A stretch of DNA of 64,000 bases from Armatimonadota bacterium (GTDB lineage: Bacteria > Armatimonadota > Fimbriimonadia > Fimbriimonadales > Fimbriimonadaceae), in the NCBI GenBank assembly GCA_016789105.1, contig JAEURN010000006.1, positions 310,001 to 374,000 on the forward strand, in the 5' to 3' direction. Made by a program: the position numbers and the translations under genes. This document shows, piece by piece, positions 17,269-20,709 of the stretch; within the stretch, counting starts at the first letter, position 1; every line of letters starts with the position of its first letter. A model generated the notes under the pieces. The model searched no databases. It was not told the origin of the DNA and worked only from the letters and a program-made list of their open reading frames with translations.

Positions 17269-18357
17269 ATGGACACCATAACGATCAAGATCGGCGAAAG
17301 GAATTTTGTGCTTGACCGCGAAAAGGCGGAAGCAGCGCAGGCCGGTAAGGCCGTCATCAACGGCCGGGAGACGATGACTTTCAACCTCCTCCCGCTCAAA
17401 TACACCTGGGCTTACACGCTTTACCGGACCATGAAGGCCAACCATTGGGAGCCAGAGGACATCCCTATGCAAAAAGACATCGAGCAATGGCGCAGCGACA
17501 CCGCGCTCAGCGAAGTCGACCGCTGGATCATCCGGATGGCCATCGGTTACTTTAGCGCCGCCGAAGGCATCGTCGGCGACAATATCCTCCATGTCGTGCG
17601 AGAAGCCGTCACCGCCTCGGAACTCAAATTGGTCTTGGGCCGGCACGCCCACGAAGAGAACATCCACGCCGACAGCCTGCTCTACATGATCTCAAGCCTG
17701 GGGATCAACCCCCACGAATGCGAGGCGATGTTTGAAGACGTGCCCACGATTAAGCGCAAAAACGAGTTTGTGACCAGCAACAGCTACGATATGCGGCGGG
17801 GTGTAGACCTGAGCGACACGCGCAACAAGCAAAAACTGGCCAAGAACATCTTTCTGTTTGGTCAATGCATGGAAGGGACGCAGTTCTACGGCCTATTCGG
17901 CATGGTGCTGAGCCTATACCGCCAAGGCAAGTTCCCGGGCATCGGGCAGATGTTCCGCTACACCTTGCGCGACGAAAGCAACCATATCGAACTGTTCCGC
18001 CAGCTCCTGATGGAACTCGTTGACGAGAACCCCGACATGTGGACCGAAAGTTTCAAACTCGAGCTAGTGGACACGATGCGCGAGGCCGTTTCACTTGAAA
18101 AGGAATTCATCCGGGACTGCCTGCCGGTGGCGGGGGTCGGGCTTTCTGCCGAAGAGTTCATGCAGTACATCGACTACATCGCCGACCGCCGACTGGAAGG
18201 ATGCGGGTTGCCGGAACTAAACCCCGGCGTCACCAACCCCCTGCCATGGCTCGCCGAGCTGATGGACATGAAGAAGGAGCAGAACTTCTTTGAAGGGCGG
18301 GTCACGGAGTACCAGAAGTCTTCGGCTCTCTCCGCCGTAGATGACGACGAGTTGTAA
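17269..18357 (+). CDS. nrdB: Class I ribonucleotide reductase beta subunit, class Ic-like
   Basis: 362 residues from ATG 17269. It houses the dimetal cofactor that starts radical chemistry for NDP reduction by the alpha subunit. Aligning by spacing to E. coli NrdB gives ligands Glu99 (E. coli Asp84), Glu130, His133, Glu202, Glu236 and His239. The residue four after His133, where E. coli has the radical Tyr122, is Leu137. Glu for the first Asp plus loss of the Tyr is the class Ic (Mn/Fe, Chlamydia-type) signature. The acidic C-terminal tail (SAVDDDEL) is expected for binding the alpha subunit. No nrdA is adjacent. Confidence 0.92.
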   Translation: MDTITIKIGERNFVLDREKAEAAQAGKAVINGRETMTFNLLPLKYTWAYTLYRTMKANHWEPEDIPMQKDIEQWRSDTALSEVDRWIIRMAIGYFSAAEGIVGDNILHVVREAVTASELKLVLGRHAHEENIHADSLLYMISSLGINPHECEAMFEDVPTIKRKNEFVTSNSYDMRRGVDLSDTRNKQKLAKNIFLFGQCMEGTQFYGLFGMVLSLYRQGKFPGIGQMFRYTLRDESNHIELFRQLLMELVDENPDMWTESFKLELVDTMREAVSLEKEFIRDCLPVAGVGLSAEEFMQYIDYIADRRLEGCGLPELNPGVTNPLPWLAELMDMKKEQNFFEGRVTEYQKSSALSAVDDDEL

Positions 18358-18364
18358 ATTTGCC

Positions 18365-18390
18365 CTCCCTCCCCAATTCTGGTCAGGGAG
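18365..18390 (+). repeat. Diverged REP-like palindrome before the RAYT-like gene
   Basis: CTCCCT...AGGGAG forms an imperfect inverted repeat sharing the CTCCCTCCCCAA-TCTGG core with the two perfect repeats downstream of the gene. Its right arm AGGGAG also serves as the ribosome-binding site for ATG 18397. Confidence 0.6.
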
Positions 18391-18396
18391 ATGCGG

Positions 18397-18903
18397 ATGG
18401 CCACACTGCGAGAGCTGGCCAAACTTGACATGGCTAAGTGGCAGAACTTCAACATCTGGCGGGGGAGGTTGCCGCATTGGCGGGCCGACGACGTGCGGTA
18501 CTACGCCACGTTCCGGCACAAGCGCGAACTCACCGACCCCGAGCGCACGGTGCTCTACATCAAGCTGATGCGGGCGCAGCGGCGCAAGTTCGATTACCTG
18601 ATCCTGTGCGTGCTGCCCGAGAAAACCGAAATGTGCTTCACCGTCAACCCCGGGCCGGACGGGGAGCCGTACGAACTCAGCGACGTTCTGGAAAAAGCCA
18701 AACGCCAGGCCGGAGCGGCGATCATCAAAAGGAGCGGGGAACGGTGGCCGCCGTTTTCGGGCGAGAGCTACGACCGCATCATCCGTGACGAGGCAGAGTT
18801 CGGGGATACGTGGGACAAGATATTGGCTTCGCCGGTGGATGCGGAGTTGTGCGAAGACCCGGCGGAGTGGGACACATTGTTCGTGCCCGACGCGCCGGAG
18901 TGA
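18397..18903 (+). CDS. RAYT-like (Y1 transposase family) protein with degenerate HUH motif
   Basis: 168 residues from ATG 18397; ATG 18391 sits too close to the SD. The order of elements follows REP-associated tyrosine transposases: RGRLPHWRADDVRYYATFRHKRE at the start, a strand YLILCVL, and the C-terminal ESYDRIIRDEAEFGDTW...ILASPV...W block with the candidate catalytic Tyr (SYDRI). However, the metal-binding MPNHVH motif is LPEKTE, so both His are lost. Single-strand DNA cleavage is therefore unlikely, although DNA binding could remain. REP-like palindromes lie on both sides. Cellular domestication or decay are both possible. Confidence 0.72.
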   Translation: MATLRELAKLDMAKWQNFNIWRGRLPHWRADDVRYYATFRHKRELTDPERTVLYIKLMRAQRRKFDYLILCVLPEKTEMCFTVNPGPDGEPYELSDVLEKAKRQAGAAIIKRSGERWPPFSGESYDRIIRDEAEFGDTWDKILASPVDAELCEDPAEWDTLFVPDAPE

Positions 18904-18907
18904 CCAA

Positions 18908-18953
18908 TCTCCCTCCCCAAGTCTGGGGAGGGTGGGGAGGGGTTGCCGCAACG
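18908..18953 (+). repeat. REP-like repeat, copy 1 (46 bp)
   Basis: First copy of a 46-bp unit that is identical in copy 2. It contains the palindrome CCCTCCCC-AAGTCT-GGGGAGGG, a GTGGGGAGGGG extension and a terminal TTGCCGCAACG. The end pairs with CGTTGCGG in the spacer (18954-18971) to form a second hairpin. It starts 5 nt after the RAYT-like stop codon. Confidence 0.85.
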
Positions 18954-18971
18954 TCACGTTGCGGGGGAAAC

Positions 18972-19017
18972 TCTCCCTCCCCAAGTCTGGGGAGGGTGGG
19001 GAGGGGTTGCCGCAACG
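18972..19017 (+). repeat. REP-like repeat, copy 2 (46 bp)
   Basis: Exact second copy of the 46-bp unit, 18 nt after copy 1. Its terminal GCCGCAACG again faces an inverted partner (CGTTCGGC at 19023-19030, one bulge), so each unit consists of two hairpins. The array ends before the convergent DUF1801 gene. Confidence 0.85.
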
Positions 19018-19091
19018 CACCACGTTCGGCTAGTCTCCACCAGCCCCCGATCAAGGCACTCCGCATCGGCAGCTCGGCACGCCGGCAAGCT

Positions 19092-19550
19092 TCATCCGGC
19101 CATGGGCCGTCGCTTCGGCCCTTTCATCACAATAACCTTGATCAGGTTCTCCGGCGGATCGTCGGACCGAATCGCCTGGGCCACCGCTTGGTCGATCAGC
19201 CCCCGGATGTACTCGTCGTCCAGTTGCTCGCTAGAAGTCAGCCGGATATGCCGGACCCGTGCACCATTTCCTTGCAACCGGCCTTCGGGGTCATCGAGCG
19301 CGGCCCCGTGGTTGAACCCCAGATTCACGTAGTTAGTGTAGACCGGCAGGTGGATGAAGTGCTCCAAGGGTTTTTGGGTGAATCCGAAGCCGGTCGTCAC
19401 CGCTTGGGTGGCATCGTAGATGAATTCGTTGCACGGCGGGAGGATTTCCCGCATCCGCAAGCGCAGCGCCCGGTGCAACGTTTGGGTCGCTTCGGGATAG
19501 GGAGAAAGGAACGACAGATATTCCGCGGGCTCAAGGCGTTCCATTGACAT
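19092..19550 (-). CDS. DUF1801 domain protein
   Basis: 152 residues from ATG 19550 (ATG 19544 also possible). The layout YLSFLSPYPEATQTLHRALRLRMREILP..EFIYDATQAVTTGFGF..FIHLPVYTNYVNLGF follows the DUF1801 (YdhG-like) fold; the function of the family is unknown. An acidic and hydrophobic C-terminal helix (DDEYIRGLIDQAVAQA) and the basic end KGPKRRPMAG complete it. It follows leuA by 16 nt on the same strand and is probably co-transcribed. Confidence 0.7.
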   Translation of the reverse strand: MSMERLEPAEYLSFLSPYPEATQTLHRALRLRMREILPPCNEFIYDATQAVTTGFGFTQKPLEHFIHLPVYTNYVNLGFNHGAALDDPEGRLQGNGARVRHIRLTSSEQLDDEYIRGLIDQAVAQAIRSDDPPENLIKVIVMKGPKRRPMAG

Positions 19551-19566
19551 CCGTATGCCGCCGCAA

Positions 19567-20709
19567 CTAACGTTTGACGAGTTCGTACAAGTCGTCGTCG
19601 CCGACTTCGGTTTTTGTGTCCGCCATTTCCAAGAAGTACGTGTACAGTTCCTCAAAACGGGCTTCAGGGAAGCTGAACCCCAGTTCTGAGAGGCGGTGCT
19701 TTAACCCATGCCGGCCCGAACGGGCCGTCAGGATAATCTCACTTTTCTCAGCCCCGACAAGGTGGGGGTCGATGATCTCGTAGGTGGACCTTTCTTTCAG
19801 CACTCCGTCTTGGTGAATCCCGCTGCTGTGGGCATAGGCGTTGGCCCCAACCACCGCTTTGTTACGTTGCACGAGCATGCCGGTGCGGGCACTGACCAAT
19901 TTTGAAACAGCAAGGAGTTTTTCGGTATGGACGGACGTCTCCAGGCCAAATTTGTCTTTGCGGATGCGCAGGGCCATCACGACCTCCTCAAGAGAGGTGT
20001 TGCCAGCTCGCTCCCCAATACCATTGACAGTGACTTCCACTTGCCGCGCCCCGCCCATGACCCCGCCCAAAGTGTTAGCGGTGGCCATACCCAAGTCGTT
20101 GTGGCAATGGCAGCTGAAAATGGCTTTGTCGCTGTTGGGCACGTTGCTGATGATGTCGGCAAATAGGCTTTGATACTCATCTGGCGTGGTGTAGCCGGTG
20201 GTGTCGGGGACGTTGATGACGGTCGCCCCGGCGGCGATCACGCTTTCGACCACTCGGTAGATGTACTCGCGCCGGGCCCGGCCCGAATCTTCCATGAAGT
20301 ATTCGACATCGTCCACAAACTGCCGGGCGAGTTTCACGGCGGCAACTCCCTTTTCAAGGGCTTGGTCTTCCGTCATTTTCAGTTTGTGTTGGAGGTGGTT
20401 ATCGCTGACTCCCAGCCCGGTGTGGATCCGGGGGCGCTCCGCTGGCTTAAGCGCTTCGGCCGCACACTCGATGTCCTTGCTGACGGCGCGGGTCAGGCCG
20501 CACACCGTGACCCCTTTTAGCTCGGTCGCCAATGTCTGCACGCTTTCAAAATCCCCGGGAGACGAGATCGGGAAACCCGCCTCGATGATGTTGACCCCGA
20601 GATCCACCAACGCGTGGCCGATTTCCAGCTTTTGATCCATGTTGAGGCGCACCCCCGGCGATTGCTCGCCGTCGCGCAACGTGGTGTCAAAGACATGGAC
20701 TTGGTTCAT
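19567..20709 (-). CDS. leuA: 2-isopropylmalate synthase without regulatory domain
   Basis: 380 residues. Condenses acetyl-CoA with 2-ketoisovalerate in leucine synthesis. The HMGL-type TIM barrel opens with VHVFDTTLRDGEQSPG, has metal-binding CHCHNDLGMA and the GNTSLEEVVMAL stretch, and continues into the SGIHQDGVLK linker region. It ends at KTEVGDDDLYELVKR, just where full-length LeuA (about 510 residues) begins the leucine-binding C-terminal domain. The stop is not followed by leftover coding sequence. A homocitrate or citramalate synthase relative cannot be excluded, but LeuA fits best. Confidence 0.85.
   Translation of the reverse strand: MNQVHVFDTTLRDGEQSPGVRLNMDQKLEIGHALVDLGVNIIEAGFPISSPGDFESVQTLATELKGVTVCGLTRAVSKDIECAAEALKPAERPRIHTGLGVSDNHLQHKLKMTEDQALEKGVAAVKLARQFVDDVEYFMEDSGRARREYIYRVVESVIAAGATVINVPDTTGYTTPDEYQSLFADIISNVPNSDKAIFSCHCHNDLGMATANTLGGVMGGARQVEVTVNGIGERAGNTSLEEVVMALRIRKDKFGLETSVHTEKLLAVSKLVSARTGMLVQRNKAVVGANAYAHSSGIHQDGVLKERSTYEIIDPHLVGAEKSEIILTARSGRHGLKHRLSELGFSFPEARFEELYTYFLEMADTKTEVGDDDLYELVKR

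Follow-up and report, generated by a model that had tools for sequence, protein, structure and literature searches.

A RAYT-derived gene without catalytic residues, probably domesticated in the Fimbriimonadaceae

Can a RAYT that has lost its metal-binding residues persist as a host gene, and what ties it to the REP-like palindromes at its side? RAYTs are described as domesticated transposases that have remained associated with the repeats copied by them and whose exact host function is unknown (PMC8049555). In the window, the 64,000-nucleotide stretch of a Fimbriimonadaceae contig analysed here, a RAYT-like gene lies between such palindromes. A reading made from the sequence only had described the gene as a RAYT relative without its HUH motif, and the palindromes as REP-like.

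A RAYT relative and its catalytic centre

The open reading frame at 18391-18903 (+ strand) is intact and offers in-frame ATG codons at 18391, 18397 and 18430, giving 170 amino acids from the first and 157 from the last. Since orthologues begin near position 18430 (MAKWQNF), this last codon may be the true start. The upstream neighbour is nrdB (17269-18357, + strand), in the same order in several genomes of the same genus, and a DUF1801 gene (19092-19655, − strand) is convergent with the RAYT-like gene.

The encoded protein matches the NCBIfam model NF047646 (REP-associated tyrosine transposase) with an E value of 1.5e-7 and 31.4 bits, well short of the curated 80-bit cut-off, so that it is homologous to RAYTs but is no equivalog. 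The same profile is matched by 25 of 29 members. For the window protein itself, a Pfam search gave no family above cut-off and no usable match, and a sequence search of the PDB returned nothing; the link to 4ER8, the E. coli RAYT with its REP hairpin, comes from the fold and from an intact relative. The AlphaFold model (pLDDT 83, above 90 over most of the core) has the expected order beta-alpha-beta-beta-alpha-beta-alpha. Its best PDB match is 4ER8 (Z 14.0, rmsd 3.0, 136 residues), which is also ranked first by Foldseek, and the next entry, IS608 TnpA, stands well below at Z 10.0. By its match to 4ER8, the model has the Y1 HUH (RRM-like) fold of a RAYT. The RAYT architecture proposed by the sequence-only reading, for which a predicted fold and its comparison with the E. 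coli protein had been suggested as a check, is thus borne out by both profile and structure: the gene is a true RAYT (TnpAREP) relative.

We compared the catalytic positions in an alignment of 83 orthologue rows, in which four same-genus loci occur twice as they came from two sources, and 39 rows of intact RAYTs. At 18613-18630 (+ strand) LPEKTE stands in place of the MPNHVH strand, as had been noticed before, and the metal-binding His pair of the HUH motif is replaced by K78 and E80 (K78-T79-E80). At 18817-18831 (+ strand) KILAS(P) occupies the position of Y---NP, the signature of this TnpA-Y1 class, in which N119 binds the metal (PMC6006769). Here the catalytic Tyr has become Lys143 and the metal-binding Asn S147, giving K---SP for Y---NP. 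Both Tyr and Asn are missing from all 83 orthologue rows, and the residues found at the four catalytic positions vary among them. The sampled intact RAYTs have the Tyr, the Asn and the first His in 39 of 39 cases, and the second His in 38 of 39. Judging from the alignment, the whole catalytic centre is lost, that is both His of the HUH motif, the catalytic Tyr and the metal-binding Asn, and we refer to the protein and its orthologues as dead. Homologues with an intact HUH, together with a stop or a frameshift in this copy, had been named as evidence against a HUH-less RAYT relative; the pair is intact in 0/83 dead rows and the frame in the window is open.

The tyrosine of the SYDRIIRD motif (18766-18789, + strand) had been taken for the catalytic one and described as kept. 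When an intact relative (L084) is aligned to 4ER8, SYDRIIRD falls on FWEHAIRN and WNYIWLNP on VDYIYINP, which contains the E. coli catalytic Y115, 16 residues beyond the SYDRI tyrosine. The SYDRI tyrosine is therefore not catalytic, and the equivalent of Y115 is the Lys143 described above. It is Phe in 25 of the 83 dead rows and variable in intact RAYTs.

Could the protein still cut single strands by means of other residues? It retains the fold and DNA-contact positions, as such a nuclease would. Nonetheless, all four catalytic positions are taken by varied residues, and the alignment contains no new His or Tyr that is invariant in the dead clade: H29 and Y37, which are invariant there, are common in intact RAYTs too. 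We consider residual nuclease activity very improbable.

Spread, age and selection

The dead orthologue is present in 80 of 85 Fimbriimonadaceae genomes and in 70 of the 70 family genomes of high quality (≥90% complete and ≤5% contaminated); the five genomes without it are 68-89% complete. Each genome carries one copy, and presence and synteny agree with vertical inheritance of a single-copy gene. The named relatives within the genus comprise MAGs of Fimbriimonadaceae and 'Armatimonadetes bacterium Uphvl-Ar1'; a scan for related loci returned only four close relatives. When 291 genomes of the phylum were searched with a profile, only weaker matches appeared beyond the family, and those that were aligned are intact RAYTs.

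In a maximum-likelihood tree from which the duplicate rows were omitted, a branch with 100/100 support separates all 79 dead rows from the rest; this tree is midpoint-rooted and its bootstrap is not fully settled. The ratio dN/dS ranges from 0.015 to 0.18 over the 14 unsaturated pairs. Given one clade, family-wide presence and low dN/dS, the HUH loss is most simply explained as single, ancient and maintained. The homologue alignment and dN/dS estimates proposed by the sequence-only reading accordingly show a loss conserved among relatives, and its alternative of a recent HUH loss gives way to one ancient loss common to all Fimbriimonadaceae orthologues. As far as alignment, tree and substitution rates tell, the dead RAYT is probably an ancient, domesticated, non-catalytic protein under strong purifying selection.

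A decaying relic or pseudogene would also have lost its catalytic residues, and a gene fragment with stops does lie near one orthologue (G088). The frame is open in nearly all orthologues, however, the high-quality genomes of the family all hold the gene, and the dN/dS values already refute decay, which makes this the most far-fetched of the explanations considered. The fragment itself (G088:C1:527161-527247; L034:4095-4178) spans 29 codons with two stops, about 0.8 kb upstream of the intact copy, and is a partial duplication.

Intact RAYTs also occur in many genomes that carry the dead gene, and hence the dead lineage coexists with live RAYTs. For the genome of the window, a second, intact RAYT had been suggested as something to look for; genome searches found no intact RAYT and no PF01797 match there.

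Palindromes beside the gene

A diverged palindrome of the CCCTCCCC type lies between nrdB and the gene (18365-18390), and two dispersed repeats of the same type follow the gene at 18908-18953 and 18972-19017. The latter are 46 bp long, 64 bp apart from start to start and 100% identical; each consists of a hairpin and a G-rich tail with a G-quadruplex motif. The earlier description of these three elements is confirmed in coordinates and identity. It had also given each copy two hairpins: the palindrome is real, and the second hairpin is weak when a copy is folded alone. The 64-bp repeat is not called as an array by TRF, and an Rfam search of 18200-19200 found no RNA.

At their end the 46-bp units carry GGGGAGGGTGGGGAGGGG, a G-quadruplex motif whose loops are one base long, and such a motif is kept in 12 of the 18 distinct CCCTCCCC units of the genome. 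Within 18385-18397, the diverged palindrome has GGGAG in its right arm, a short distance ahead of the ATG at 18397; this is a possible Shine-Dalgarno site for that codon, and a hairpin at this place could hide it.

The window contains six matches to the CCCTCCCC pattern compared to 0.2 expected from shuffling. Genome-wide, pattern searches give 48 strand matches, corresponding to about 28 sites, compared to 0 for a reversed-pattern control, so the genome-wide count proposed earlier does not turn up the few copies elsewhere that would have told against REP-like repeats. The units often form short direct arrays. Like the GTAG/CGTC-tagged REPs (PMC3733652), they are short dispersed palindromes, some of them in tandem arrays; they differ from tagged REPs in being untagged (the aligned units have no conserved GTAG-like or CGTC tag), in standing beside no tested intact RAYT and in their frequent G-quadruplex tail.

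Next, we asked whether these repeats accompany the gene. One possibility, put forward by the sequence-only reading, is that the protein is a domesticated REP binder and acts on the neighbouring CCCTCCCC palindromes by binding or maintaining them. RAYTs bind hairpins, the gene in the window has repeats both upstream and downstream, the G089 orthologue has one unit upstream and the G088 orthologue a weak one downstream. Outside the genus, however, no CCCTCCCC unit occurs within 300 bp of any orthologue. Within the genus, G090 and G091 carry the gene and only 0-1 sites, while sites are numerous in G095 and G106, two genomes of another family that lack the orthologue. No GTAG-like tag is present, and none of 76 intact RAYT places (0/76) has a CCCTCCCC unit within about 400 bp. 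We therefore find it improbable that the protein is a binder of these palindromes. The earlier proposal of a domesticated REP-binding protein survives in its first half, through the dN/dS values and the family-wide presence, and loses its second half, since the repeats are decoupled from the gene. For the same reason the palindromes can no longer be called the gene's own REPs, and the identity of the CCCTCCCC copies, once read as recent or maintained activity, says nothing on the activity of the dead protein. The units near the G089 and G088 orthologues mean that there may be a link between CCCTCCCC and the gene at the level of the genus.

Flanking hairpins also set the two groups apart. They are found on both sides of 0/77 dead orthologues compared to 29/70 intact RAYTs, and on any side of 15/77 compared to 46/70. 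No conserved target sequence was found, and hairpins are mostly absent beside the dead orthologues.

Two other sources for the repeats were considered and rejected. CCCTCCCC is not cognate to the intact RAYTs of relatives, whose flanking hairpins have other sequences (for example ggtgGCACTGG...CCAGTGC), and an intact RAYT elsewhere in the genome of the window that could have mobilised it was not found. At loci L160-L170 (genomes G086, G088, G089, G061, G062, G075, G095 and G098) most intact RAYTs are flanked by hairpins whose sequence differs per RAYT; this class may thus contain several different pairs of RAYT and REP.

Candidate role and related systems

Finally, we examined what the dead clade has conserved. 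K104, E125, D128 and R132 are near-invariant there and common in intact RAYTs. D128 and R132, both within SYDRIIRD, correspond to E. coli RAYT positions 100 and 104, which are listed among the contacts to GTAG (PMC8266576); the equivalent of Gln95, another such contact, is not retained. The dead clade has also gained near-invariants of its own, W23, R31, A32 and E101. Up to SYDRIIRD the net charge is +5 in the dead as in the intact group, and the C-terminal part carries −10 in the dead proteins compared to −3 in the intact ones, which makes the dead proteins acidic overall (median pI 5.5 compared to 8.1). A core that keeps its charge and two equivalents of GTAG contacts makes a role in nucleic-acid binding plausible, and the pattern suggests that the binding core was preserved and that the helix once used for catalysis was repurposed.

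The explanation that we favour, and hold to be fairly likely, is an anciently domesticated RAYT that lost its catalytic centre once, became a core gene and works by binding nucleic acid. A single loss of the full catalytic centre, no later than the ancestor of the Fimbriimonadaceae, would have been followed by vertical inheritance as a core gene, in single copy and with strong purifying selection. The RRM-like core, with its net positive charge and its REP-tag-contact positions, would most likely bind a folded single-stranded nucleic acid, either a DNA hairpin or RNA, and the protein would act in a structural or regulatory role, binding instead of cutting. The newly acidic C-terminal helix, at the site of the former Tyr, may serve protein contacts or autoregulation. 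The acidity of the whole protein (pI 5.5) weakens the case for a nucleic-acid role; the loss of the Gln95 equivalent, the lack of a conserved target sequence and the scarcity of flanking hairpins also speak against this explanation.

The gene neighbourhood bears on another possibility. In other genera, glnB (PII) precedes the gene at 19 loci, often within tens of bases and on the same strand, and dnaK follows it at 15 loci, again on the same strand; a sensor histidine kinase is near the gene at 38 loci, nearly always on the opposite strand. This recurrence across genera supports vertical inheritance. Together with the acidic pI and the acidic C-terminal helix, it would also fit a domesticated dead RAYT whose role is now protein-protein, for example with proteins of the PII or DnaK pathways, and whose nucleic-acid binding is lost. 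Nevertheless, the core charge and the nucleic-acid-contact positions are conserved, neighbourhood alone is weak evidence, and in several genomes of the window's own genus nrdB replaces glnB as the upstream neighbour. We see a purely protein-binding role as unlikely, and a functional link to PII or dnaK is only a lead. At L018, L020, L038, L052, L054 and other loci, the gene directly follows glnB and often precedes dnaK.

The nearest known counterpart of the dead gene is RAYT/TnpAREP of E. coli (4ER8; class 2 of the TnpA-Y1 superfamily, PMC6006769), with which it has in common the fold, the sequence profile, the retained E/D100 and R104 equivalents and the usually single-copy, vertical mode of inheritance. 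The dead gene differs in having no HUH, Tyr, Asn or cognate flanking REPs, in its acidic C-terminal helix and in the new near-invariants of the N-terminal WRGRLPHWRAD stretch. The TnpA proteins of IS200/IS605 elements (IS608, ISDra2) share the Y1 HUH fold (Z about 9-10); in contrast to them, the dead gene is not a mobile element, has no catalytic residues and shows no tnpB or element ends. A further system (PMC13418256) serves as an analogy only. It originated as a nuclease-dead TnpB. There, likewise, a catalytically dead protein of the IS200/IS605 sphere was recruited for another job, but from the TnpB lineage and not from TnpA, and for the dead RAYT no RNA guide is known. A literature search covering mostly non-subscription papers found no catalytically dead RAYTs.

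The locus thus presents a RAYT lineage that has lost catalysis and the repeats and is nonetheless kept throughout the family as a core gene, with strong purifying selection acting on it. A host-useful non-catalytic function is in this way separated from transposition and made testable. With full catalytic loss and core-gene status, the gene is of more interest than first described, and its association with the repeats of less. We give roughly even chances to the broader claim that one ancient catalytic loss turned a RAYT into an obligatory non-catalytic nucleic-acid-binding regulator as a core gene of the family. If true, selection can act on the binding function of a RAYT by itself, in the absence of both REPs and transposition.

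The gene is also found in two genomes of 1.5 Mb (G068 and G069; loci L085 and L083), in which no intact RAYT was seen and a very diverged dead orthologue (30-37% identity) is kept.
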